Positions 5,246-52,277 of a DNA stretch of 52,277 bases are shown piece after piece. The translations under genes were made by a program, and so were the position numbers. The number at the start of each line of letters is the position of its first letter. The first letter of the stretch is position 1. Source of the DNA: Bryobacter sp. CoA8 C33 (GTDB lineage: Bacteria; Acidobacteriota; Terriglobia; Bryobacterales; Bryobacteraceae); NCBI GenBank assembly GCA_019931185.1, contig JAINDK010000034.1, forward strand, positions 1-52,277, read 5' to 3'. The notes beneath the pieces were generated by a model. It had not been told where the DNA came from and ran no database searches. It worked only from the letters and a program-made list of their open reading frames with translations.

Positions 5246-6409
5246 GTGCTCACCCGTCGCAGCCTCCTCGCCTCCCCCGCCGCCCTCTTCGCCGCCGATA
5301 CCTCTCCCCGCAAAGTCCGCATCGGCATCGTCGGCGGCCGCTTCGGCCTCACCTTCCAGTTTCACGACCACCCCGACTGCATCGTCGAAGCCGTCGCCGA
5401 ACTCCGCCCCGACCGCCTCGCCGCCCTTGCCCGCACCTACCGCTGCGCCAAGACTTATAACTCCCTCGCCGCCCTCCTCCGCGACCCCAAAGTCGAAGCC
5501 GTCTGCCTCTTCACCGATGGCCCCCTCCACGTCGAACACGCCATCCTCGCCCTCCGCCACGGCAAACACGTCCTGTCCGCCGTCCCCGCCGCCTGGGGCA
5601 CCCTCGAGCAGTGCTACGCCCTCCAGGATGCCGTCCGCAACTCCGGCCTCCGCTACATGATGGCCGAGACCTCCTGGTACCGCCAATCCACCATCTCCGC
5701 CCGCAAGCTCTTCGAGCAGGGTAAGTTCGGCGAAATCTTCTACAGCGAAAGCGAATACCACCACGACGGCCTCGAATCCCTCTACGTCGAGAACGGCCAG
5801 CGCACCTGGCGCTACGGCGTCGCCCCGATGCATTACCCCACGCATTGCACCGCCTTCCTCACCGGCGTCACCGGCGAACGCTTCACCGAAGTCTCCTGCC
5901 AAGGCTGGGGCGACGGCGACCCCATCCTCAAGGACAACCCCTACAACAACCCCTTCTGGAATGAAACCGCCCTGCTACGCACCAGCAAAGGCCATTCCCA
6001 TCGCCTTTCCGTCTGGTGGAAAGGCGCTCACAAGGAAGCCGAACGCGCCCAGTGGTTCGGCACCCGCATGAGCCTCGCCACCGCCGGCTGGAACCCCGCC
6101 ACCAGCGTCGAACACCGCAACACCCTCGGCCAGGATGACGCCGGTTTCGCCCACCGCTCCCACCGCGTCGCCCCCTTCCCGGAAACCCAATGGTGGAAGA
6201 CCGACCTCCTGCCCGAACCCCTGCGTAAACCCTCCGGCCACGACGGCTCGCACACCTTCCTTACTCACGAGTTCATCGACGCCCTCTCCCACGGCCGCGC
6301 CCCGGCCATCGACCTCAAGATCTCCCTGGCCCTCACCGCCCCCGGCATCGTCGCCCACCAGTCCGCCCTGCGCGGTGGCGAAAAACTCCCGGTCCCCTCC
6401 TTCGATTAA
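5246..6409 (+). CDS. Exported Gfo/Idh/MocA-family oxidoreductase
   Basis: A 387-residue protein starting at GTG. The N-terminus (LTRRSLLASPAALFAADT) carries twin arginines and a short hydrophobic stretch, so export by the Tat route is plausible and common for this family in Acidobacteriota. The Rossmann domain follows: KVRIGIVGGRFG near residues 23-34, then VEAVAELRPDRLAALARTY and FTDGPLHVEHAILALRHGKHVLSAVPAA. Note that the usual cofactor-loop GxGxxG reads GIVGGRFG, and the EKP tripeptide that follows the fourth strand reads SAVPA, so the catalytic Lys is replaced. The C-terminal alpha/beta domain is present (EIFYSESEYHHDGL onward). Probably acts on sugars or related polyols; substrate unknown. 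Confidence 0.82.
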   Translation: MLTRRSLLASPAALFAADTSPRKVRIGIVGGRFGLTFQFHDHPDCIVEAVAELRPDRLAALARTYRCAKTYNSLAALLRDPKVEAVCLFTDGPLHVEHAILALRHGKHVLSAVPAAWGTLEQCYALQDAVRNSGLRYMMAETSWYRQSTISARKLFEQGKFGEIFYSESEYHHDGLESLYVENGQRTWRYGVAPMHYPTHCTAFLTGVTGERFTEVSCQGWGDGDPILKDNPYNNPFWNETALLRTSKGHSHRLSVWWKGAHKEAERAQWFGTRMSLATAGWNPATSVEHRNTLGQDDAGFAHRSHRVAPFPETQWWKTDLLPEPLRKPSGHDGSHTFLTHEFIDALSHGRAPAIDLKISLALTAPGIVAHQSALRGGEKLPVPSFD

Positions 6410-6411
6410 CC

Positions 6412-7679
6412 ATGCGGCCGCCCCGTCACCCCGACCACTTCCTTCGCGGCAGCCTCAGCGAAATCCAGCGCGACCCCATCGGCTTTCTCACCTTCCTCCA
6501 CCGCACCTATGGCGACGTCAGCGTCCACCGTGTCGGGCCTCTCGACTATCACCTCGTCGCCCATCCCGACGGCGTCAAACGCATCCTCCAGGACAACCAC
6601 CCTAACTATTCCAAACGCATACCCGATCCGCAGGCCATCGGCTATCTCACCGGCCCCGGCGTCCTGGTCACCGTCGCCGTCGCAGGCAGCCCGCCTTCCG
6701 CCGCGCCCGCATCCACCAGATGTTGCTCACCATGGTCAGCCTCACCAGGGACTGACTCACCGAACTCCCCACCGGCCCCCCTCAACGCCTCCACCACCAT
6801 CACCAGCCTCACCGTCCGCATCGCCACCATGATCCTGTTCTCGCTCGACCTCGACGCCCGCGCCCGTGAGGTCATGGAATGTTTCACTCAACTCAACGCA
6901 CTGCTCATCCGCCGCTTCCGCTCCGGCCGCCTCTTCCGCCCCCTGCCCCTTTTCCGGGACGACCGCACCTTCCTCCGTCTCCTCCGCCGCTTCGACTCCA
7001 TCATCGACTCGATCATCGCTGGCCGCCGCGCCCGCCCCGCCGATTCCCCCGACCTGCTCGCCATGCTCATGTCGGCCCGCGATGAAGATGATGGCGGATT
7101 CCTCTCCGACCGCGACCTTCGCTCGGAAATCAAAACCCTCCGGCTCGCCGGCTTTGAAATCACCTCGAACGCCCTCTCCTGGAGCCTGTTCGAATTCAGC
7201 CGCCGTTCCGCCCTCGCCGCCCCATTCTTCTCCCGCGAAACCCTGGCACGCCTGCCCCAACTCCGCTCCTTCCTTGATGAGATCCTTCGCCTCTAACGGC
7301 CGCACTGGTACACGGCCCGCCGCGCTGAAAAAGCTGATCAGATCTGCGGCTATGACATCCCCGCCGGCGCCCGCATCCTGGTCTCACCCTACCTGCCGCA
7401 CCGCCACCCCGGCTTCTGGACTTCCCCCAACGACTTCGACCCCCAACGCTTTCCCCCGGGGCGTCGCGACGGCGTCCACCGCTTCTCTTACTTCCCCTTC
7501 GGCGGCGGCCCGCGTCAATGCATCGGCAACCAATTCGGCGTGGCCGAGGCCCTCATCATCCTCGCTCACTTGCTTAAAGACTTCCAGCTCTCCCTGCCGG
7601 CCCCACGTCTCCCGCCCCGCCGGCTCTCATCACGCTCCGCATGAAGACCAGCCTCACCGTCCTTCCGCAACGCTCTTGA
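6412..7679 (+). pseudogene. Cytochrome P450 pseudogene with several disabling lesions
   Basis: The gene starts two bases after the preceding stop and encodes a typical P450 N-terminus up to about 6665. Between about 6665 and 6790 the P450 sequence continues in another frame (RRQPAFRRARIHQMLLTMV, with a TGA after it), then returns to the first frame for the I-helix (AGFEITSNALSWSL) and the K-helix EILR. An in-frame TAA at 7294-7296 interrupts what should read LRLYPPHW. After it, in the same frame, the haem-ligand loop FGGGPRQCIGN is intact (Cys codon 7519-7521). Near 7600 the reading moves again to another frame for the C-terminal strand ALITLRMK, ending at 7679. Neighbouring genes are intact, so true decay is more likely than poor sequence. 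Confidence 0.85.
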
Positions 7680-8424
7680 GGTGGGCCAAGCCACGACGGA
7701 TCCCGCTCAGTCCGTCAAAGACCGCATTCGCGAAATTGATAAACCGGTAGCCCTGCCGCCACGCCTTCTCGGCCGACTCGACCGAGCCCAGCGCGATGCC
7801 CGCCACTTTGCCCTGGCTGCTGACGCGCGCCGGGAACTCCGCCAGAAACTGCTGCACACGCTCGTGCTGCAGTTGGCCGATCAGCCCCATCGACGCCGAA
7901 AGATCCATCGGCCCGGCCAGCACAACATCAATGCCCTCGACGGCGGCGATTGCTTCCACGTTCTCCATGCCGGCCAGGGATTCCACCTGCGCCACGATGA
8001 GCGACTCCTCATTGGCCTCCGGCAGATACTCACCCCAAGGCACATCGTTATAAAACGTCCACATCGGCGAGACGCCGCGCGTGCCCACCGGCGGGTACTT
8101 CGCATACTGAACAATACGCCGGGCCTCGGCCGCATCGTCCACCTGCGGCACCATGATGCCCTGCGCCCCGACATCGAGCGCTTTCTTGATCAGCGACGAG
8201 TCGATGCCGGCCACGCGCACGAGCGGCATGGCGCCGCTCTGGCGTATCAGGGGCGGCAGCAGCTCAATCGACTCGGCGCCAAAGCTCGAGTGCTCGGTAT
8301 CGATCCAGACAAAGTCGACGCCGGTCGTCGCCGTCAGCTTGGCAATCAGCGGCGTGGGCCCCAAAGTCGAGGCGCCCCAGGCCGTGCCACCCGCGGCCAG
8401 CAGTTTCTTGACAGGATTCATCAT
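7654..8424 (-). CDS. HpcH/HpaI-family class II aldolase
   Basis: A 256-residue TIM-barrel protein of the family that cleaves 4-hydroxy-2-oxo acids to pyruvate and an aldehyde. Visible landmarks: catalytic His45 in VWIDTEHSSFG, the phosphate or carboxylate-binding Arg in MPLVRVAG, GAQGIMVPQVDDAAEA, the metal-ligand Glu in VAQVESLAGMENV and the Asp in VLAGPMDLSASMG. All key residues are present, so it should be active; whether its substrate is a heptenedioate, a deoxyglucarate or another compound cannot be told. Its ATG overlaps the stop of the preceding gene as ATGA, so the two are translationally coupled. Its 3' end overlaps the relic 3' end of the P450 pseudogene by 26 bases. Confidence 0.88.
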   Translation of the reverse strand: MMNPVKKLLAAGGTAWGASTLGPTPLIAKLTATTGVDFVWIDTEHSSFGAESIELLPPLIRQSGAMPLVRVAGIDSSLIKKALDVGAQGIMVPQVDDAAEARRIVQYAKYPPVGTRGVSPMWTFYNDVPWGEYLPEANEESLIVAQVESLAGMENVEAIAAVEGIDVVLAGPMDLSASMGLIGQLQHERVQQFLAEFPARVSSQGKVAGIALGSVESAEKAWRQGYRFINFANAVFDGLSGIRRGLAHLKSVAEGR

Positions 8425-9410
8425 TGTGGCGGCACCTGTGCCATGTAGCTGAGCAGAGCGAGAAACTCGCTCGTCACATCAATCGTCACGCTGTCGGCCT
8501 CGGCGCCCGCTCCGCCATAGACGCCCGTTGCCAGCCAGGAGCCGTCGTCGTTCTGCAGCGCGGTCAGCCCCGCCGTCACGGCATCGACGAGTTTCCGGTC
8601 TTCACTGTTCCGTGAGAGGCGGTAAGTCCAGGCAGCGCCCCAACCCACCTTGCCGCTCTGCGGCGTCTGATAACGGTCCGCAGCGAGATATTGCGTAGCC
8701 TCAAGAAAGTCCCGGCCCAGGCGCAGCCAGTGCTGATCGCCCGTGACGCCGGCCACGGCGCTCAACAACGCGGCGGCAATGCCGTACTGAAAGTAGTATT
8801 GACGCTTCTTGGCCGCGTCGACGAAATACGACGCCGCCTCCGCCTCGGGATAGCGCCGCACCAGCCCATCCCGCCAGGCCGTGTACAGCCCCAGCCGGAT
8901 GTTCGGCTGGGCCGTCCAGAGGTGGTCCAGCCAGTGCGCGGCAGCCAGAGCCAGATCCTGATTTCCGCTGTAGAGACTGGCAAGGCCGGCCATCGCCGTC
9001 GTCATAATCTCTTCTCCGCTTCGGGCCTCGTCGGCATAAAAGCCTCCGGATTGGCCGTTGTGGTAGGTCGATACAAAGGTAGCCAGTTGACGGGCCAGCG
9101 CAAAACGGCCTGCCGTTACCGCCGCGCAGCAGAGCCAGCTATGCGGGTAAGTGCGATACATCGTGAACCATGGCACGCCCTCACCGTTGAGGTCGCCTCC
9201 GGCTAGCAGCAGGCGGCTCTCGACATAGTCGAGCACCCGGTGCGCTTCGTTCACATGGCCATGGGCCAGCAGGGCCGCCGGCGTCTTGTAGTAGGCCCGC
9301 AGATCGGCGCCGCCACGAAAGGATCCATCCTCTTCGAGCAAATTCAGCAGCCAGCCTGCCGCCTTGTCCGCCGCTTTCCACTGTTTTGTATGGGAGTAAG
9401 TTTCTGCCAT
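8421..9410 (-). CDS. Alpha/alpha-toroid-like protein of unknown function, coupled to the aldolase
   Basis: A 329-residue protein without signal peptide or membrane segment. It consists of repeated helical hairpins with aromatic and Gly-rich turns (WLLNLLEEDGSFRGGAD at the start, LGLYTAWRDGLVRRYP in the middle, GLTALQNDDGSWLATGVYGG near the end). The QNDDGSW-type turn recalls the QW repeat of terpenoid cyclase and prenyltransferase toroids, and the whole resembles six-hairpin glycosidase-like folds. No DxDD or zinc-site motif is visible, so a cyclase activity is not supported. It is the first gene of a two-gene unit with the aldolase (ATGA overlap), which suggests a shared pathway for a sugar-acid or related substrate. 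Confidence 0.6.
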   Translation of the reverse strand: MAETYSHTKQWKAADKAAGWLLNLLEEDGSFRGGADLRAYYKTPAALLAHGHVNEAHRVLDYVESRLLLAGGDLNGEGVPWFTMYRTYPHSWLCCAAVTAGRFALARQLATFVSTYHNGQSGGFYADEARSGEEIMTTAMAGLASLYSGNQDLALAAAHWLDHLWTAQPNIRLGLYTAWRDGLVRRYPEAEAASYFVDAAKKRQYYFQYGIAAALLSAVAGVTGDQHWLRLGRDFLEATQYLAADRYQTPQSGKVGWGAAWTYRLSRNSEDRKLVDAVTAGLTALQNDDGSWLATGVYGGAGAEADSVTIDVTSEFLALLSYMAQVPPQ

Positions 9411-9824: not shown

Positions 9825-11002
9825 TGCCGCCGCACTGGCGCGTGGTAGCGCTGCTGGCCTGCGCCGGGGCACTCAATTATGCTGATCGCACCAGCCTCTC
9901 GGTCGTCTTCCCCTTGCTGCGTGCCGAGCTCTCTCTGAGCGACATGGAGTTGGCGGCCATTGGCAGTTTCTTTCTCTGGAGCTATGCCGCCGCTTCTCCG
10001 CTGGCCGGCTGGGTAGTGGACCGCTATCCGCGCCAGCGCGTGATCACGCTGAGCTTGCTGGCCTGGAGCCTGGTAACACTGCTGACGGCGCTGGTGCAAA
10101 GCTCCGGGGCGCTGCTGGCCACGCGGGTTCTGCTGGGGCTGAGCGAATGCTTCTACCTGCCGGCGGCGATTGCGCTGATAGCCGGACATCATGGTCCGGA
10201 GACACGCGGTCGCGCACTGGCATTGCATGCCTTTGGCCTCAACCTGGGTCTGGTGGGCGGCGGGGCTTTAGCCGGTTATCTGGGGCAGCAGTATGGCTGG
10301 CGCAGCAGCCTGGTGGTACTCGGCGTGCTTGGCATCGGGCTTTCGCTGCTTTGCCACTTTCTGCTCTGCGAGGCGGGCGGGCGGCCGGTCACGCAGCAGC
10401 CGAGCTGGACCCGGCTGCTGCGGAATCGCGCCTGGGTGCTGCTAGCGGTGGAGGCGGGCCTCGTTTCCCTCGGCACCTGGATGTTCTTCAACTGGATGCC
10501 GCTGTACTTTCAAGAGCGCTTCTCGCTCAGCCTTGCCTTTGCCGGCTTTTCCGGCACGGCCGTGCTGCAGCTATCAGCCGTCTTCGGCCTGCTGATCGGC
10601 GGTGTGATGACCGATGCAATCGCCCGGCGCGCCGGGCTCAGGGGGCGGCTGCTGGCCATGGCGTTGTTGTATGTGCTGTGCGTCCCACCACTCGTCGTTT
10701 TTCTGGCGAGGGCCGGCTTTCCCGCCGTGGCCTCCGGTGTCGTCGCCTTCTCGTTTCTGAAGGCGCTGGCGATGGCGAATGAGCCGCCGGCGCTGTGTGA
10801 AATCGTCGAGGAGCAGGACCGCGGCTCGGCGCAAAGCCTGATGAACATGTTGAACACGCTCGCGGGAGGAATCGGCGTCTATGTGGCGGGCGCGCTGAAG
10901 GCGGACTGGGGGCTGAGCGGGGTCTTCGCTTCGACGGGTGTGCTGATTCTGCTCTCGGCCCTGCTGACGCTCGGCGTGCGCCGGGCCAGTGTCAGGCCTT
11001 GA
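9824..11002 (+). CDS. MFS transporter, anion:cation symporter-like
   Basis: A 392-residue inner-membrane protein with twelve predicted helices. The start is ATG 9824 (the GTG just before it at 9821 is an alternative); it overlaps the TGA of ridA by one base. The N-terminal helix with [22 protein letters not shown] and the loop DRYPRQRVI between helices 2 and 3 are typical of the ACS family, which imports organic anions such as sugar acids. Helix 4 has [23 protein letters not shown]. It may carry the substrate of the neighbouring aldolase, but that is only suggested by position. The 3' end overlaps the convergent DUF1552 gene by 11 bases. Confidence 0.85.
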
Positions 11003-12263
11003 GCGCGAGCCCGCGCATCGTACCCGTGGCGCAGGCGAAGGTTTTCGCCTCAATCCCCATCCGCTCGATGATGCTGAGAAAGAGATTGGGCAGAGGATAG
11101 TTTCGCTCGCCGGGAAAGGCGAGATGCTGGCCGTGGCGGAAGCCACCACCGGCGAAGACAACGGGCATGTCGGTGGTGGTGTGGCGGTTGGCGTCGCCGA
11201 AGTTGGACCCGTAGAGCACCATCGAGCTGTCGAGCAGCGAGGCAGCCCGCAACTGACCCAGCAGATCGGCCAGATGTTTCATGTGCATATGATCGATGGC
11301 TTCGAGCTGCTTGAGCTTGCTGTCGTTCTTGCCGTGGTGCGAAAGGTTGTGATAGCCGTCGGTGATGGCAATGCCGTCGACGTCGATAGCCGGGGAGTTG
11401 ACACTGTCTAAAAAGAGCGTGATCAGGCGCGTGGAGTCGGTTTCAAAGGCAAGCCGCGAGACCTCATACATGAGCTTGACCTTGGCGAGATAGGCGCGGG
11501 GATCGGCCGGGTCGATGGGCTCCCTGGCGGCGGTAACCGGCTTCGGTTTGCGCTCCCAGGCCTGGGCAAGCACGAGGCGGCGTTCGAGTTCGCGCACACC
11601 GGTCAAGTACTGCTCAAGCCGGGCGCGGTCTTCGCCGTCCAACTCGGCGCTGAGCTTTCCGGCTTGTCCGGCGACGGCGTCCATAATGCTCTGGCCGAGG
11701 CGCAGGCGTTCGATCTGCCGTTCGATCTCGGCGGCGCTGCCCTGCAGGAAGAGCTTGCGATAGACGGCTGCCGCGGAGTCTTCGCACGGGATCATGACGC
11801 CGCCCCCGGTCCAGGAAAGGCTGCGCTGTGCCTTGGCCACGTTGACGCCGAGAGTGAGAGAAGAAAAGCGGGTCTTGACGCCGATGTGCTCGGCGAGAAA
11901 CTGATCGAGCGAGATCGTATTGCGAAAACCGCCATTGGCCGGGTGCGGGGCGGCGGTGAGAAAGCAGACCTCGGAGTTATGGCTGCCATCGACATCGGGA
12001 TGGGATACGCCGGAGAAGACTGTGAAGTCATCGCGGAAGGCGGCGAGGTGTTGCAGGTAAGGGCTGAGGGTGTAGCCGCGGCCGGCCGCGGCGGGGAAGA
12101 AGCCGGCGGCCAACAGACCGAGGTTATTGCAGATGGCGAGCAGGCGGCGGGGGGGCTCAGCCGTGGCGGCGAAGGCGGGCCGCATGGCCTCGAGCAGGGG
12201 CAGGGCAAGGCGTACTCCTGCCGCCCGCAGTACGCTTCTTCGGCTGATACGCATTTGTTTCAC
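10992..12263 (-). CDS. Exported DUF1552 protein
   Basis: A 423-residue protein with a Tat-type leader ([23 protein letters not shown]). The core carries the DUF1552 layout: [41 protein letters not shown], a central helical hairpin ([16 protein letters not shown]) and the late block [11 protein letters not shown] and [24 protein letters not shown]. The family resembles the alkaline-phosphatase-fold DUF1501 proteins in several motifs, including His-rich HNLSHH, but no reaction is established. It lies 3 bases downstream of the DUF1592 gene on the same strand and is almost always paired with such a protein in Acidobacteriota and Planctomycetota. Confidence 0.88.
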
Positions 12264-22748: not shown

Positions 22749-22838
22749 GGTGAGGTGCGAGAGTGGTTGAATCGGGCGGTCTCGAAAACCGTTGATGCGG
22801 AAACGTATCCGTGGGTTCGAATCCCACCCTCACCGCCA
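22749..22838 (+). tRNA. tRNA-Ser (anticodon CGA)
   Basis: Acceptor arms GGTGAGG (22749-22755) and CCTCACC (22828-22834) pair perfectly, followed by G and an encoded CCA at 22836-22838. The anticodon loop CTCGAAA (22781-22787) gives CGA at 22783-22785, which reads UCG serine codons. A long variable arm lies between the anticodon stem and the T loop GGTTCGAATCC, as expected for class II tRNA-Ser. It begins 8 bases after the recN stop. Confidence 0.97.
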
Positions 22839-23107: not shown

Positions 23108-23686
23108 ATGTTTGCTCCCCCTGAGACGCTGAAAGCACTGCTGGCACAGTCACAGGATGGCAAGGGTGAGGCGGACGTGAAGCTATTCACGCTGCTCTAT
23201 GACGATTTGCGGCAATTGGCGCGCCAGATGCTGCGTCAGGAACGCGACGGGCATAGTGTTCAGGCTACGGCTCTTGTGCACGAAGCCTTTTTGCGGCTGG
23301 CCGCCAGCGGCGGTGCCTGGACGACGAACGACCGCAAGCATTTTCTTGCGCTTGCCGGACGGGTGATGCGCCGGCTGCTGATCGACCGCATCCGGCGTAA
23401 GCAAGCCCTGAAGCGTCCGCAAGCTCAGAGCATGGAAGAGGAAATCGATTTCGAAATCGCCACGCCGGCAAACCAGGAAGCGATTCTGGAGATCGACCAC
23501 GCGCTCGAAAAACTGGAGGCTCTTTCGCCTCGCACGGCTCGCATCGTCGAATGGCATTATCTGATTGGGTTCACGATTGAGGAAATCGCGGCGACGCTCG
23601 AGGTGTCTCCGCGCACGATACATCGCGACCTGAACATGGCGAAGTGCTTTCTGAGCGAAGCATTGCAGGGAATCCAGGTAAAGTGA
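23108..23686 (+). CDS. ECF-type RNA polymerase sigma factor (PF07638-like)
   Basis: A 192-residue protein with the two sigma regions and nothing else. Region 2 runs about residues 20-100: YDDLRQLARQMLRQE, TALVHEAFLRLA, then HFLALAGRVMRRLLIDRIRRKQALKR. Region 4 runs about residues 130-185, ending in the helix-turn-helix IEEIAATLEVSPRTIHRDLNMAKCFL. This subgroup is expanded in Acidobacteriota and Planctomycetota and is typically found beside Ser/Thr kinases, which are thought to control it by phosphorylation instead of an anti-sigma factor. A kinase with the matching N-terminal pattern lies in the same cluster. It precedes the subtilisin gene by 42 bases on the same strand. Confidence 0.88.
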   Translation: MFAPPETLKALLAQSQDGKGEADVKLFTLLYDDLRQLARQMLRQERDGHSVQATALVHEAFLRLAASGGAWTTNDRKHFLALAGRVMRRLLIDRIRRKQALKRPQAQSMEEEIDFEIATPANQEAILEIDHALEKLEALSPRTARIVEWHYLIGFTIEEIAATLEVSPRTIHRDLNMAKCFLSEALQGIQVK

Positions 23687-23728
23687 ATCATCGCCCGGCG
23701 CGGTGATCGCCAAGCGAGGAACTTCGCC

Positions 23729-24841
23729 ATGGCCAAGGTATCTGGCAAGCAGCCCCCCGGTGCAACGGGCTATCCGACGAACCTGCTTTCGCCGGCGGCC
23801 TCTTCCGCCTGGGACGCCCTCGTGCGATTGGCGCTTGCACGCAATCCCGGCTTTGTTCCGCCCCGAAAACCGGAAATCCGCCCCGGGCCTGACGCGGCGC
23901 TGCCCGTCGAACGCTCGGATGGTCCGGGTGAAGAGCCGCCACTCGATGCCACGGCTCATCCGGGTGGTAGCGTGCCGCCTTATCTGGCGCAGATCGCCGT
24001 TGAGCAAGCCTGGTGCCGGGGAGCCGGGCGCGGCGTCAACGTCACCATCGTCGATAAGAGTTTCTTTACTGCTCATCCGGCTTTTCCTGGCTCGATTCAG
24101 CGAGCCTCACTCGCATTCGGCGATCACAACCCCCGTGCCATGGCGCATGGGACCAACGTGTTGGGAATCTTGGCGAGGCAGCATCCAGATTATGGAGTGG
24201 GGATTGTACCCTGTGCGAATTACCGGCTGGGTACTTATTATCAGCGGCCGAAGGGGGAAAAGATCAGCTTTCTGAGCCTGCTGGTGCTTGCCGGGCAAGG
24301 CAGCCCACCGCCCGATGTGCTGGTGCTGCCGGTGCAAGCCGAAGGCTTGCCGCTGGAGACGAATCCGGATTACAGCGAAGCCATCCGGTTGATCGTCGGG
24401 GCCGGAGTCCATGTGATCGCCTCGGCCGGAAACAGAGCCACCAGACTGACGAAGCGCCACTTTCCTCTGCCGCCTCCAGGGTCGATTCTTGTTGGGGCGG
24501 GGGACGCGCAGGGTAACCGGTGCGACATTTCAAACTACGGTGAACGCGTCGTGGCCTTCGCGCAAGGGTACAGCATATTTACTGCGTCCGTGGACGACAC
24601 CCGCCGCAAACCGCTGCCGTGCTCCACCAGTCACTTTGGCGGCACCTCCGCCGCGACGGCCATCGTGGCGGCCGTGGTTTGTGCGATCCAGGGGGTGAAA
24701 AGGCTGGCCCCGGAACAGTTAGCAACCGTTCTATTGAAAGGCGGTTTCCCTTGCCAGCCCAAGGCGAAAATCGGCATTCGCCCTAACCTCAAAGGTATCT
24801 TCGATCATCTTGAAGCTAGCGGGCCTTATACTGAATCGTAA
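23729..24841 (+). CDS. Subtilisin-like S8 serine protease, no signal peptide
   Basis: A 370-residue protein preceded by GAGGA at good distance. The first 85 residues are Pro/Ala-rich and look like a pro-region or linker. The complete triad is present: Asp109 in VNVTIVDKSFF, His140 in MAHGTNVLGILA and Ser307 in GGTSAATAIVAAVV, with the oxyanion Asn235 in ASAGN. The Asp motif reads VDKS instead of the usual D-T/S-G. No signal peptide or membrane helix is seen, so it probably works in the cytosol, as in several peptide-maturation systems. It lies between the sigma gene and the YcaO gene on the same strand; its 3' end overlaps the convergent small gene by 26 bases. Confidence 0.87.
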   Translation: MAKVSGKQPPGATGYPTNLLSPAASSAWDALVRLALARNPGFVPPRKPEIRPGPDAALPVERSDGPGEEPPLDATAHPGGSVPPYLAQIAVEQAWCRGAGRGVNVTIVDKSFFTAHPAFPGSIQRASLAFGDHNPRAMAHGTNVLGILARQHPDYGVGIVPCANYRLGTYYQRPKGEKISFLSLLVLAGQGSPPPDVLVLPVQAEGLPLETNPDYSEAIRLIVGAGVHVIASAGNRATRLTKRHFPLPPPGSILVGAGDAQGNRCDISNYGERVVAFAQGYSIFTASVDDTRRKPLPCSTSHFGGTSAATAIVAAVVCAIQGVKRLAPEQLATVLLKGGFPCQPKAKIGIRPNLKGIFDHLEASGPYTES

Positions 24842-25088
24842 TGGACTTGAAGGGCGCGGTTGTATTCAGGCTTTTCAATAAGATTTCCTTGACGCTCTTG
24901 TTGTTGAACAGAATATCGTTAATGTAAATGCTCTTGTTTTCACTTTCCACGGTGAATTTGGAGCCTGCGACGAATTTAGCTTCCGGGCCGGAACCTCCCT
25001 CGGCCAGGATCAATTTTCTGGTTTCTGTAAAGTTAGCGCTGCTGATCCGTGGAGCAGCCGGGGCGTTGTTGGTCTTTTTCTTTGCCAT
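24816..25088 (-). CDS. 90-residue protein of unknown family; possible precursor peptide
   Basis: A small basic protein (MAKKKTNNAPAAPRISS at the start), Ser/Thr/Asn/Lys-rich and free of Cys. The second half (FTVESENKSIYINDILFNN and KEILLKSLNTTAPFKSI) alternates hydrophobic and polar residues as in a small beta-alpha domain. AGGAG lies 15 bases before the ATG, a long but possible distance. Base use is clearly more AT-rich than that of its neighbours. It is divergent from the YcaO gene (141 bases) and ends inside the protease gene's 3' end. Its place between a YcaO and a protease makes it the best candidate here for a modified peptide, with Ser/Thr as possible targets, but it has no recognised leader motif and may instead be a small folded or regulatory protein. 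Confidence 0.55.
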   Translation of the reverse strand: MAKKKTNNAPAAPRISSANFTETRKLILAEGGSGPEAKFVAGSKFTVESENKSIYINDILFNNKSVKEILLKSLNTTAPFKSITIQYKAR

Positions 25089-25125
25089 TGTGGTAGTAAT
25101 ACTCTCCTACTTTTTGATTGACGGG

Positions 25126-25155
25126 TTGACAACTTGTGCCGCTCACGCGATTTTA
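25126..25155 (+). promoter_or_regulatory. Candidate sigma-70 promoter for the YcaO gene
   Basis: A perfect TTGACA at 25126-25131 is followed after 18 bases by ATTTTA (25150-25155), a weak -10 match. A direct repeat TTGAC-GGG-TTGAC (25118-25130) covers the -35 box and could be an operator. The leader to the YcaO ATG would be about 70 bases. Confidence 0.35.
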
Positions 25156-25229
25156 GTGCGGCTGCGGCAGTTCTCCCAACTTAATACCGTGAAGACCAAT
25201 CTGGCAAGAGCTCGCCTGAATTTGCACCC

Positions 25230-26417
25230 ATGTTAGAACAACGTTTTCGAGTTTTTTACCGTTTTCAATCTCCGGAGCGCACGATTGCTGAGGTAAGACT
25301 GCCGCAGAATCGTAATTTCCCTAAATCGCATCGCGCTCCGCTAACGACGGTTTGCTCGGGAAACGGCGGCTCAAGTGCTTCGTCGAAGCTGGCCGCTTTT
25401 GGGGAGGCGGTGGAGCGTTACAGTTATGTTTTTCAAGGCTCTGAAACAGTGATCATTGGCGCGGAGCGGGAGTTAGAACAGCAATGTGGCCTGCTCACGC
25501 CGCGGGTTTGTAATCAATTTACAGAGGAGCAATACGCGGGGCGCGAAGCGTGGAATGCCAGTCCGCTTGCCTTTCCCTACATTCCGCGGCCCGTGGATCG
25601 GGACGAGCCGATTGCCTGGACGGTGGTTTGGAGCCTGACGCGGCCGGAGACGTTCTTGGCTCCGGCGCAGCACTGTTACTTTTACAGCAACCCGCCGACG
25701 GAGCGGCTGGTGTGCGTTGCGGATTCCAATGGCTGCGCGGCCGGGGAAACGATGGAGCAAGCCGTGGAGCACGCGCTACTGGAGTTGATCGAGCGGGATG
25801 CCATCGCGCTATGGTGGACGGCACGGTTGCCGCGGCCAGGCCTCGTGCTGCCGGAGTGTGCGGAGGTGGAGGACATTGTGAGCGAATTCACAGCGCGGCA
25901 ACGGCGGGTCTGGCTGCTCGATCTGACCACCGATGTTGGTGTTCCCGTGGCGGCGGCGATTGCCGCCGCCACGGCTGGGTCCGCCCGGTTCAGTTTTGGT
26001 TTTGGCGCTGCCTTCGCGGCCCGGCGCGCTGTTTTGCGCGCTCTGTATGAGCTTCGCCAGAACGAGGCGATCCACGAAGAGACGCCGCAACCCGATGATC
26101 CGCATTCGATGCATAACGCGCATCTGCATTGGCTGAAGGATGCCCGGCTCGAGGCGAATCCGCATTTCGTGCCTCAAGGCTCCGGCCGCATCTTGAGCGC
26201 GGCGGCGCGCACCAATCTCGAATCCCTTCTGCGGGACTTGGCCGATCGCGGCTGGAATATCTACGCGCTTGATCTCTCGCGCCCGGAAACGAAAACACCC
26301 GCCGTGCGGTTGATCGCTCCCGATCTGGCTGTGCCTTATCACCGTTTTGCCTGTCAACGGATACAGCAAGCCCTCAAGAAAGGCTTTGGCCCTAACCCTG
26401 CGCCGTTTTGTCTTTGA
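25230..26417 (+). CDS. YcaO-family cyclodehydratase-like protein with PxPxP C-terminus
   Basis: A 395-residue YcaO-domain protein. Family ATP-binding motifs are present: GNGGSSASSKLAAFGEAVERYS (Glu59, Glu62, Arg63) and EQAVEHALLELIERDAIALWW (Glu185, Glu188, Arg189). The C-terminus reads PNPAPFCL, so a P-x-P-x-P motif (388-392) stands three residues from the end; in azoline-forming YcaO proteins a proline-rich C-terminus is needed for activity. YcaO enzymes use ATP to turn the peptide backbone at Cys, Ser or Thr into azolines, or to form amidines or thioamides. The usual E1-like or ocin-ThiF partner that binds the leader, and TfuA, are both absent from this window. It is divergent from the small gene and overlaps the convergent kinase gene by 26 bases. 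Confidence 0.86.
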   Translation: MLEQRFRVFYRFQSPERTIAEVRLPQNRNFPKSHRAPLTTVCSGNGGSSASSKLAAFGEAVERYSYVFQGSETVIIGAERELEQQCGLLTPRVCNQFTEEQYAGREAWNASPLAFPYIPRPVDRDEPIAWTVVWSLTRPETFLAPAQHCYFYSNPPTERLVCVADSNGCAAGETMEQAVEHALLELIERDAIALWWTARLPRPGLVLPECAEVEDIVSEFTARQRRVWLLDLTTDVGVPVAAAIAAATAGSARFSFGFGAAFAARRAVLRALYELRQNEAIHEETPQPDDPHSMHNAHLHWLKDARLEANPHFVPQGSGRILSAAARTNLESLLRDLADRGWNIYALDLSRPETKTPAVRLIAPDLAVPYHRFACQRIQQALKKGFGPNPAPFCL

Positions 26418-28875
26418 GGTCTGAGAAGTCCGGCTGCTTGCCGTCGGGATAACGGATTGCAGCAATGCTGAGAGCAGCACGGAAGCTGCTTATATCGTGG
26501 ATCTTGTCGAAGGATTGATGAACGAGCAGCATCGGCAAGCTGGTATCGCGTACGCGCGAGCATTCCGTCAGATAAATCTCAGTCTGCTGGAAATCGAGCA
26601 GTTCGGCGAAGACCCGGGCGAGATGAACGGGCTGAAAAAATTCCTTGGTCCGGAACTTCGCGGCAGCCTCTTCGGCGAGGGCCCGGCCCGTGCGTGCATC
26701 GCCGCTGAGCGTGTGAGCGATGGAGGCATAAACGCAGCTTTGCGCGCCGCGGTTGGAAAGCCGCAGCGCCTCCCCGGCATAGTGGCGCGCCTCGGCGGCA
26801 TGCCCCAGCCGGGCATAACATTCGGCAAGATACTCGGCCGTTACACGCTGGCCGGGGAGCAGCCGGTCGAGTTCGAGAAAGCCAGAGAGGGCGCGCGAAT
26901 AATCACGAAGGAAGTAGCGCATGGCCGACTGTGCCCGCAAGGTAGGATAGCCGAGGCGGTCGTTCTCATAAGCCAGGTCCACTTCGTGCAGGCATTGCTG
27001 CCACTGGCCGCTCTTCAAGTGAACCGCCGACAGCCACTGGTGCGCGGGGGCATAGCCGGCATCGAGGGCAATGGCCGCTTCCAATTCCCGGCGCGCACCC
27101 ACCAAATCGTATTCGAACAGAGAAAGAGCAATGCCCAGGCTGGCTCGCGTCACCGCCGAGCCCGGTTCGAGTTCCACACCGCGGCGGGCCCGGCCCATCG
27201 CCTCCTGCTGATTAGCAGCGGGGCTTAGCTCACCCTGATCGGCCAGCGCGCACAGGCAATCGGCCATGCCGCTCTCCGCCTGTCCAAAATAAGGCGCCAA
27301 GTCCAGACACTTCCGGAACTTCGCCAAAGCTTCACGCAAATCCTTCGGGGTCCTCTTGCCCCACAAGTGCCGCCCTTCGAGATAAGCTCCATAAGCTTCT
27401 TCGTTCACCAGCACGCCGCGGGAATCGGTAACCAATCGGTTGGCCATCCCCAGGATACCGAGCACCACACCGGCGACGCGGCTTGGCACTTCGGCCATCT
27501 TGCCCGCGGCGAGCGCCACGGTATTGGCTCCCAAAACCTTGCCCTTGCGCAGGTCCAATACCCGCACGCTGACCTGCCAGCCGTCCGGCTTTCGCGTCAA
27601 GGTCGGCTGCGCCAGAACGTCGGCGGCCAGGCGCTGGCCCAACTCCTCAGCCTTCAGATTATTCGCGGCGATGCTGAAGACGCTACCCGATCCGGCTACG
27701 GCCAGCCGCGGCACGGCGAGCAGATGCTGCGTCGATTGAGCCGTAAGTTCTTTCACCTGTTCGGGGGCGATTTCGAGTGAACCCGGGCTCACCTCGAAGG
27801 GCATCAGGGCGAGGCTCAATCGCCTTTCGCCCCGTTGCGTAAACCTCCACGTCCCCAAGCCGCCCAGCACCACCGCGGCCGCGCCGGCGGCCCGCATCAA
27901 TCGCCGTCGCGACACCTCGCCGTTCCACTCCCGGAAGAATTGTCCCGCCGAGGCTTGGCGCAATTCCGGCGCCGCCTGGGTGGCGCGTTGCACGGCTTCC
28001 TTGCGCGGCCCGCGGGCCGCTGGATCCAAGGCTTCCGCCAGAAATCCGAGGGCGTAAACATCGGCTGCCGCCGACACCTCGCCGCCGAGAAACTGCTCCG
28101 GCGCCATGAAACCCGGCGTGCCCCCCTCGGCGACACCCTCCCGCAGCGTAGCCAGCCCGAAGTCGAGAATCACCACGCGCAGATCGCCCGCCCGGTTCCG
28201 GGCCAACAATACATTGCCCGGCTTGAGGTCCAAATGAACAATGCCGCGGCGATGGATCTCATCGAGCCCGGCCGCCAGTTGCCGCAGGATCTCCACGGCC
28301 TCGGTGCGCGCGCGCTCGTCGCCAAGCTTCAGCCAATCCTTCAGGCTCTCGCCCTCAACCCACTCCATGATCAGGAAGGGGATTTTTGCCCCATCCACTT
28401 CCCCTTCGAACCATTCATAAACGCGGCAGACATTCGGATGCGAAACTTCGCGGCTGCGCGCCACCTCACGGAGAAAGCGGTCTCGCGCTGCCTCCGAGGA
28501 CAGCAGGCGCGAGCGCAGGATCTTCAGCGCCACACGCTGATCGAGCACCAGATCCTTAGCCAGATACACGCTCGACATGCCACCCTTGCCCAACAAGGAC
28601 TCCACGACAAACCGCCCCAGCAAGCGCGTACCCGGCGCGAGAAGCACGTCGTCGCACTCCGGCATCATTTTCCCCAACATCGGCAACAAGCCGGAGTCGG
28701 CGCTTTCGTAGCGCCGCAGCAACACCTTCAGCAATTCCTTTAACTCCACCTTGCCACTGCAGAGTTGCTCCATCAATTCGGCGCGCTCGGCCGCGTCGCG
28801 GTCCATCAACTTACCGAAAATGGACCGTGCCTCACGCCAAATGTCTCCTTCTTCGAGCGATGTTACTGGTTCCAT
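26392..28875 (-). CDS. Membrane Ser/Thr protein kinase with C-terminal TPR sensor
   Basis: An 827-residue protein. Residues 1-70 form the helical N-terminal segment seen in kinases linked to ECF sigma factors (AAERAELMEQLCSGKVELKELL). The kinase domain has the glycine loop GKGGMSSVYLA (96-106), Lys118, the catalytic loop HLDLKPGN (214-221), DFG at 238-240 and GTPGFMAPE at 252-260. The usual HRD is HLD, so it is a non-RD kinase, but the Asp, Lys and Asn are intact. One membrane helix follows near residue 325-345 (LMRAAGAAAVVLGGLGTW), then an alpha/beta segment (SLALMPFEVS) and several TPR repeats to the end. It probably senses a signal outside the cytoplasm and controls the sigma factor of this cluster. 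Confidence 0.88.
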   Translation of the reverse strand: MEPVTSLEEGDIWREARSIFGKLMDRDAAERAELMEQLCSGKVELKELLKVLLRRYESADSGLLPMLGKMMPECDDVLLAPGTRLLGRFVVESLLGKGGMSSVYLAKDLVLDQRVALKILRSRLLSSEAARDRFLREVARSREVSHPNVCRVYEWFEGEVDGAKIPFLIMEWVEGESLKDWLKLGDERARTEAVEILRQLAAGLDEIHRRGIVHLDLKPGNVLLARNRAGDLRVVILDFGLATLREGVAEGGTPGFMAPEQFLGGEVSAAADVYALGFLAEALDPAARGPRKEAVQRATQAAPELRQASAGQFFREWNGEVSRRRLMRAAGAAAVVLGGLGTWRFTQRGERRLSLALMPFEVSPGSLEIAPEQVKELTAQSTQHLLAVPRLAVAGSGSVFSIAANNLKAEELGQRLAADVLAQPTLTRKPDGWQVSVRVLDLRKGKVLGANTVALAAGKMAEVPSRVAGVVLGILGMANRLVTDSRGVLVNEEAYGAYLEGRHLWGKRTPKDLREALAKFRKCLDLAPYFGQAESGMADCLCALADQGELSPAANQQEAMGRARRGVELEPGSAVTRASLGIALSLFEYDLVGARRELEAAIALDAGYAPAHQWLSAVHLKSGQWQQCLHEVDLAYENDRLGYPTLRAQSAMRYFLRDYSRALSGFLELDRLLPGQRVTAEYLAECYARLGHAAEARHYAGEALRLSNRGAQSCVYASIAHTLSGDARTGRALAEEAAAKFRTKEFFQPVHLARVFAELLDFQQTEIYLTECSRVRDTSLPMLLVHQSFDKIHDISSFRAALSIAAIRYPDGKQPDFSDLKDKTAQG

Positions 28876-52033: not shown

Positions 52034-52277
52034 TTAGTTGGCGGCCGCGGGTTGCGTTGGTGACGGGGGGCGTTGGGCGCAGCGGTCGCGGAGTTCGGCG
52101 AACTGGAGTTGGATGTCGGGTTGGGCGCTAAGCCATTGGACGGCGAGGAGGAAGCGGGAGTGGGTGCGGCGCATCTCGTGGAGAGGGAGCGAGACGGGGA
52201 TGGAGCACTGTTCGTCCATGGTGAACATTTCGTTTTGGACTTCGGCGGCGACGGAGCGGTCGCGCTGGAGTTTGCGG
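52034..52277 (-). CDS. 3' end of an unrecognised gene (right copy), cut by the window edge
   Basis: The minus-strand frame is open from the edge (RKLQRDRSVAAEVQNEMF) and ends with a stop at 52034-52036; about 80 residues are visible. It matches the left copy except for Pro/Thr, Arg-Glu/Leu-Gln and Thr/Ala changes in the last 64 residues. Both copies remain open, so both may be intact genes outside the window. The family is not recognised. Confidence 0.6.
   Translation of the reverse strand, partial: RKLQRDRSVAAEVQNEMFTMDEQCSIPVSLPLHEMRRTHSRFLLAVQWLSAQPDIQLQFAELRDRCAQRPPSPTQPAAAN

Follow-up and report, generated by a model that had tools for sequence, protein, structure and literature searches.

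What brings a sigma factor, a protein kinase, a YcaO enzyme, a subtilisin-like protease and a small protein together in one compact cassette? The question is raised by a stretch of 52,277 nucleotides from Bryobacter sp. CoA8 C33, here termed the window, which is the whole of contig JAINDK010000034.1 (C89 of genome G000; 5.05 Mb in 138 contigs). The original prediction described five genes between positions 23,108 and 28,875, and all five are present where it placed them. They encode an extracytoplasmic function (ECF) sigma factor of ECF43-like type (23108..23686, plus strand, 192 amino acids), an S8 subtilisin-like protease (23729..24841, plus strand, 370 amino acids), a 90-residue protein whose family was not recognised (24816..25088, minus strand), a YcaO protein (25230..26417, plus strand, 395 amino acids) and a Hanks-type Ser/Thr kinase (26392..28875, minus strand, 827 amino acids). 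The protease gene and the small gene meet tail-to-tail with a 26-nucleotide overlap (24816-24841). The YcaO and kinase genes are likewise convergent, with a 26-nucleotide overlap as well (26392-26417). The small gene and the YcaO gene diverge over 141 bp (25089..25229), by its coordinates a possible shared promoter region.

The core of this cassette, the sigma-kinase-YcaO unit, is a real, inherited arrangement, and this conclusion is well supported by the family of the window, the Bryobacteraceae (237 genomes in the family-wide searches). A first contig scan with YcaO alone as query gave no match; the YcaO search of the family yielded 54 places in 41 genomes. Sigma factor and kinase were mapped with profiles in the flanks of all 54. 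We term the loci with at least 200 bits high-scoring (n = 25, with two parts in genome G254 counted once) and the others lower-scoring (n = 28). In 15 of the 25 high-scoring loci the kinase and YcaO genes converge, no more than 103 bp apart. These are the window, L063, L069, L070, L071, L073, L074, L075, L076, L083-L086, L088 and the locus of G254 (L090/L101). A sigma factor gene lies within 3 kb in 13 of these 15; the exceptions are L088, which runs into contig ends, and L075, with no sigma match in its readable flank of 9.9 kb. Sigma and kinase genes stand on opposite sides of the cassette in the window, G254, L074, L076 and L085, and adjoin each other in L063, L069, L070, L071, L073, L083, L084 and L086. 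The tail-to-tail kinase layout was found in none of the 28 lower-scoring loci (in L094 and L181 the sequence stops less than 170 bp past the 3' end of YcaO), in none of 14 loci from outside the family (about 1.5 kb of flank) and in none of the 67 named loci L105-L171, at least one of which (L115) belongs to the family. Many of these named loci match the kinase profile, but at a distance of at least 0.45 kb, and a sigma match was obtained for only L103 and L104 among 69 named loci. In two lower-scoring loci, L188 and L189, a kinase lies some 0.6 kb away in another orientation; L188 also has a sigma match at 3.1 kb.

The linked kinase is also close to the window kinase in rank. Nine other genomes contain 17-78 kinase matches each, and the linked one is the best match in five of them (G254, G039, G004, G040, G012) and the second-best in the other four (G008, G106, G101, G237). 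Among ten other genomes the linked sigma factor ranks best in five, is tied in one and comes second in four. Since the window genome holds seven TIGR02999 matches over the cut-off in 5.05 Mb, a sigma factor gene would fall within 3 kb of a locus by chance in roughly 1 in 100 cases in this genome; this rough estimate is higher for sigma-richer genomes. The proposal that a sigma-kinase pair controls a modifying cassette therefore stands as far as the association of the pair with YcaO goes (15 of 25 loci kinase-linked, 13 of them with a sigma factor). It fares worse for the rest of the cassette. Regular occurrence of YcaO homologues without the protease and the small gene had been named as grounds for refutation, and 13 of the 15 kinase-linked loci indeed contain neither. 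Thus, protease and small gene are accessory. The sole close YcaO relative found, that of G254 (53-55% identity), has both.

The sigma factor points to a mode of control. It matches PF07638 and TIGR02999, the latter with 175.8 bits (cut-off 126.15), and its region 2.2 reads QATA, with Thr54, in place of an acidic DAED-type motif. An alignment places Q[AP][TS][AD] in region 2.2 of all 13 YcaO-linked sigma factors, with Thr in 12 and Ser in one. The resemblance to the QTTA consensus supports the view that these sigma factors bear the kinase-responsive ECF43 motif, an assignment made by motif. According to excerpts of PMC13147305, co-occurrence of the gene with that of a Hanks kinase is the defining feature of ECF43. 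Excerpts of the same paper and of PMC8999054 describe the loss of the acidic region-2.2 motif and the QTTA consensus instead, the activation of EcfP via phosphorylation of the QTTA threonine and of EcfK via that threonine or a linker threonine, and, as outputs, polymyxin resistance and a type VI secretion system. In our material the window and 12 other loci combine the sigma gene with a gene for a Hanks-type kinase. The window kinase (PF00069, E 8.7e-35) retains VALK, the catalytic Asp (HLDLKPGN) and DFG (DFGL); HLD occupies the position at which kinases usually have HRD. The original prediction spoke of an ECF sigma factor and a kinase with tetratricopeptide repeats. Both proteins are there, but all repeat matches in the window kinase remain under the Pfam cut-offs; repeats over the cut-off occur in the kinases of L063, L074 and L076. 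By a simple threshold, 8 of the 15 linked kinases have a hydrophobic segment following the kinase domain. The window kinase does not pass this threshold, and hence its membrane anchoring is uncertain.

What kind of YcaO is under this putative control? The window protein matches PF02624 (E 3.7e-72) and scores 191.7 bits on TIGR03604, under the cut-off of 219.25. Its residues 38-381 match the D domains of TruD, MusD and LynD in the PDB (E 5e-46 to 2e-45), and E59, E62, R63, G168, C169, E185, E188 and R189 are invariant among nine aligned YcaO proteins. The ATP motifs are thus intact, as had been claimed. The PxPxP string also exists, but it is neither terminal (the protein ends in ...GPNPAPFCL) nor conserved in relatives. 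A search of the window genome with this YcaO at E 1e-5 retrieved no match other than the protein itself. The leader-binding domain TIGR03882 is fused in front of YcaO in L069 and L070 and is absent from the YcaO proteins of the window, G254 and G039. With its similarity to the TruD, MusD and LynD D domains and no C domain, the window protein is a cyclodehydratase-like YcaO without the usual partner. TfuA, the partner in YcaO-TfuA thioamidation, gave no model match among the five cassette genes, the part of the genome searched. A FastTree analysis of 52 YcaO sequences (two short pieces left out; some inner nodes weak at 0.09-0.50) places all kinase-linked YcaO proteins in one large clade together with SagB-type YcaO proteins of thiazole/oxazole-modified microcin (TOMM) loci, and the window protein groups with the G254 fragment and G039 at a support of 0.99. 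SagB dehydrogenases are found in related YcaO loci of this clade (L065, L066, L072, L087).

The protease matches PF00082 (E 1.1e-13). It had been described as a signal-less subtilisin with a full triad, and this description is borne out: D109, H140 and S307 form the triad by position, N235 is probably the oxyanion residue, all four are conserved in the G254 counterpart (44% identity), and no signal peptide is seen on reading. An N-terminal stretch (AWDAL ... PPxKP) is conserved as well. The 90-residue frame is a real gene, judged by a 93-residue homologue in the same slot of G254 (BLASTP E 3e-8). It has no match in Pfam, NCBIfam, PADLOC or viral contigs, and the best PHROGs match has an E of 0.21. 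Weak matches in other genomes (E 0.07-1) were discarded, being absent from a profile search at E 0.05 or better. Full-length matches to the protease profile and to the small-protein profile occur in 2 of the 237 family genomes each, together and only in G000 and G254; partial protease matches were obtained in two further family genomes (1e-23 and 3e-15). The small gene had been called AT-richer and divergent from YcaO. Divergent it is, whereas the difference in composition is modest: GC content at third codon positions is 0.64-0.74 in the five cassette genes, against at least 0.78 in 32 of 47 other window reading frames and lower in 15 by a crude gene call.

The original prediction had proposed a search for co-occurrence of the five genes, and one further genome, G254, indeed has all of them in the same order and on the same strands. 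Its gene set is spread over two contigs and is consistent with the window in order and orientation. The contig on the sigma side, JANXMS010000384.1 of an Acidobacteria metagenome-assembled genome, carries the sigma factor (66-68% identity to the window), the protease (41-44%), the 93-residue gene (29%) and the first part of YcaO (53%). The second contig carries the remaining YcaO (55%) and the kinase (56-63%). The YcaO gene is broken at the contig ends (L090 3210-3352 and L101 10260-10396), both of which have the TGGACCCC...CTAGACA terminus. One of these ends continues into the start of a transposase-like frame, which we take to belong to the IS3 family. The termini and the transposase-like start make it probable that the G254 YcaO gene is interrupted by an insertion sequence.

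A gene divergent from YcaO is not confined to these two genomes. The 5' side of YcaO is readable in 13 linked loci, 12 of which have such a gene; in L071 and L075 this side is cut by contig ends. The encoded proteins, candidate cargo of the YcaO enzymes, have 90 and 93 residues in the window and G254, 102 in L069, 128 in L070 (from an internal ATG), 175-178 in L073 (twice), L083 and L084, 180 in L086, 204 in L074 with a duplicated version in L085, 225 in L088 with a PEP-CTERM-like end by reading, and 243 in L076. All-against-all BLASTP joins only the groups window/G254, L073/L083/L084 and L074/L085, and the remaining matches are marginal, with E values of 0.01-0.09. The divergent genes that were scanned gave no family match over the cut-off; those of L076, L083, L084 and L088 were not themselves scanned.

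Several of these loci have additional features around the candidate cargo. In L063 the divergent gene is replaced by a co-directional gene that reads as P-type ATPase-like (9962-11806), beside the sigma-kinase pair; the start of the YcaO gene, which encodes no C domain, overlaps with the stop of this gene, and translational coupling is possible. Genes resembling O-GlcNAc transferases of family GT41 lie directly downstream of the cargo in L069 (5601-7049) and L070 (5259-6725), which suggests glycosylated cargo. The GT41-type gene was recognised via PF13844 in L069 and by similarity in L070 and L089. Positions 6116-7015 and 7039-8211 of L085 hold tandem-duplicated Cys-rich cargo and, next to it, a GDSG-containing frame that reads as protease-like, perhaps another instance of cargo with a protease for a neighbour. 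This cargo is separated from YcaO by a REP-type transposase-like frame (8154-8729). Precursor-like frames were seen in two other YcaO loci of the large clade, an NHLP-type one in L089 (3103-3375, 5 kb from YcaO, 39.5 bits, under the cut-off of 50.9) and a weak Nif11-like one in L087 (7914-8135, 16.4 bits, under the cut-off of 32.3).

Taken together, the gene content with its order and strands, the phospho-type motif, the signature residues of YcaO and protease and the co-inheritance of kinase and YcaO lead us to a tentative explanation, for which we would claim somewhat less than an even case: in this locus type of the family, a YcaO enzyme and a small protein that varies between loci are under the control of an ECF43-like sigma factor and the Hanks kinase that goes with it; YcaO would modify the small protein, and the S8 protease would cut it. 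On some cue, the kinase would phosphorylate Thr54 in the QATA motif of the sigma factor, and the phosphothreonine would supply the negative charge that the sigma factor needs for RNA polymerase. The regulon of the activated sigma factor would include the divergent pair of small gene and YcaO, and possibly the protease gene. The 90-residue protein would be the substrate, and the chemistry an ATP-dependent modification of its backbone by YcaO. The same protein would be the target of the protease, which might cut it before or after modification. The layout would be explained most economically if YcaO modified the 90-residue protein and the protease processed it.

Several observations weigh against this explanation. 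Only 2 of the 15 kinase-linked loci have the protease, and ten of the 25 high-scoring loci lack the tail-to-tail kinase, although all but L091 and L092 fall in the same large clade. The best match to an E1-like C/ocin-ThiF partner (TIGR03882) in the window genome reaches 19.1 bits (cut-off 36.9), G254 has no match and G039 none over the cut-off, other leader-binding families not having been searched. With no such partner over the cut-off in the genome, capture of a precursor is left unexplained. The 90-residue protein has no Cys, nine Ser and seven Thr. Its middle and a C-terminal stretch are conserved with G254 while the N-terminus varies, unlike an N-terminal leader. No leader or core is evident, which argues against a plain ribosomally synthesized and post-translationally modified peptide (RiPP), and the NHLP and Nif11 models do not match. 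Most of the small genes are unrelated from locus to locus, so that they reveal no substrate feature in common. AlphaFold predictions were too poor to help (pLDDT, the predicted local distance difference test score, of 41 for the small protein and 31 for the protease). A shared bipartite promoter motif was sought upstream of the sigma gene, the kinase gene and the small gene/YcaO pair in the window and G254, and nothing rose above shuffled sequences. Finally, the G254 copy may be decaying or misassembled, since its YcaO gene is interrupted and its kinase reads in two frames. A bolder form of the explanation would have the kinase-controlled YcaO modify lineage-specific small folded proteins and not leader-core peptides, with a constant sigma-kinase-YcaO core, exchangeable cargo and, in the clade of the window, a YcaO without leader-binding domain plus a protease. 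We regard this form as conceivable but doubtful.

The small protein might also be something other than a substrate. The regulatory pair may be understood correctly while the 90-residue protein is a partner or inhibitor, for example a docking protein for the missing domain or an inhibitor of the protease, and the true substrate is encoded elsewhere. This is rather unlikely. In its favour, the C domain fused to YcaO in L069 and L070 is missing from the window, G254 and G039 proteins, conservation of the small protein falls on its middle and C-terminal region, and the small gene stands tail-to-tail with that of the protease. However, a divergent gene for an unknown protein also accompanies kinase-linked YcaO proteins that have a C domain (L069 and L070 by model, L074 by alignment) and hence does not simply replace it. 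In G039 both are wanting: no such small gene adjoins YcaO, and no C domain is found over the cut-off.

Bottromycin-type chemistry would offer another place for the protease. According to excerpts of PMC8442711, the bottromycin YcaO enzymes act on their own, and a free N-terminal amine is required for an amidine to form. A partnerless YcaO of this kind could form an amidine or azoline at or near a new N-terminus that the protease has first created. Full-length proteases of the window kind occur in the family only with C-domain-free YcaO proteins (window, G254), in line with this idea. The best PDB matches are, however, cyanobactin D domains, the bottromycin enzymes entered our comparison from their description alone, and no cleavage site is recognisable, so that we consider this sequence of events improbable. 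Still less probable is that the cassette is the degenerate remnant of a TOMM locus, deprived of its precursor and C domain and kept by drift. The absent C domain and the seemingly interrupted G254 copy would fit such decay, but in the window all five frames are intact with their signature residues kept, and two genera still share the five genes (29-68% identity). Chance neighbourhood of an abundant sigma-kinase pair and unrelated genes, already disfavoured, is very improbable, because one exact tail-to-tail layout in 15 of 25 loci and a linked kinase ranking first or second in nine of nine genomes outweigh the 8-78 kinase matches per genome (E 1e-20 or better, 10 genomes), the 4-46 sigma matches per genome (11 genomes) and the differently oriented kinases of L188 and L189.

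The surroundings of the cassette were inspected as well. A tRNA-Ser gene (CGA, 22749-22838) lies between recN and the cassette, directly beside the latter. A full-length match to it stands near recN in five of six recN-side stretches from the same genus (G007 not among them); the sixth comprises only 926 bases. A mobile island was considered and rejected, as no exact repeat of the tRNA-Ser 3' end, no att-like repeat and no empty site were found. To the right of the kinase, no synteny was seen in the stretches fetched. Near-identical 64-residue frames in opposite orientation (MFTMDEQCSIPVSLPLHEMRR...) lie at the two contig ends (39-233, plus strand; 52034-52228, minus strand) and probably represent a dispersed repeat that interrupted the assembly. 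A role in anti-phage defence was likewise set aside: the kinase and subtilase matches in PADLOC were generic, the two for the sigma factor weak, and there were none for YcaO or the small protein.

We found no description of the sigma-kinase-YcaO arrangement in the literature searched, with subscription papers and preprints outside that scope, and the main text of the TOMM landscape paper (PMC4603692) does not contain the words kinase, sigma, acidobacteri or solibacter. If our explanation is true, the locus connects the study of ECF sigma factors activated by phosphorylation with that of YcaO chemistry on protein backbones, which are separate fields. It would provide a defined candidate output locus for ECF43-type sigma factors. 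It would also offer a natural series of YcaO enzymes with and without a leader-binding domain, most of them beside a different candidate substrate, for the study of partner dependence.

How does the cassette compare with known systems? The fused C-D cyclodehydratases of TOMM clusters (TIGR03604/TIGR03882; TruD, LynD, MusD) are similar in that the window YcaO matches their D domains and its relatives in L069 and L070 are C-D fusions. However, the window YcaO has no C domain, and none is found over the cut-off in its genome. Cyanobactin cassettes combine the S8 proteases PatA and PatG with a YcaO heterocyclase, and the window likewise has an S8 protease and a cyanobactin-like D domain. In contrast, its protease reaches 41.8 bits on the PatA/PatG model TIGR03895 (cut-off 421.05), no cyanobactin-type precursor was recognised in the cassette, and sigma factor and kinase are added. 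Clusters with a TOMM kinase/cyclase have a kinase gene near the cyclodehydratase, and we know of none with an ECF sigma factor; on the fusion model TIGR03903 the window kinase reaches 89.7 bits, far under the cut-off of 705.75. Bottromycin and streptamidine are RiPPs of standalone YcaO enzymes, and the window YcaO, too, is not fused to a C domain. Excerpts of PMC8442711 describe for the streptamidine cluster a hydrolase for leader removal, a setting to which that of the window protease can be likened, and a separate protein modelled as a RiPP recognition element with an E1-like domain, which is not seen in the window. The streptamidine family is located in Actinobacteria and Firmicutes, unlike the window. 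The closest parallels on the regulatory side are EcfP/PknT of Vibrio and EcfK/PknS of Xanthomonas, where a sigma factor with a Q-x-T-type region 2.2 is likewise encoded with a Hanks-type kinase. In contrast to these pairs, the neighbour here is a YcaO locus.

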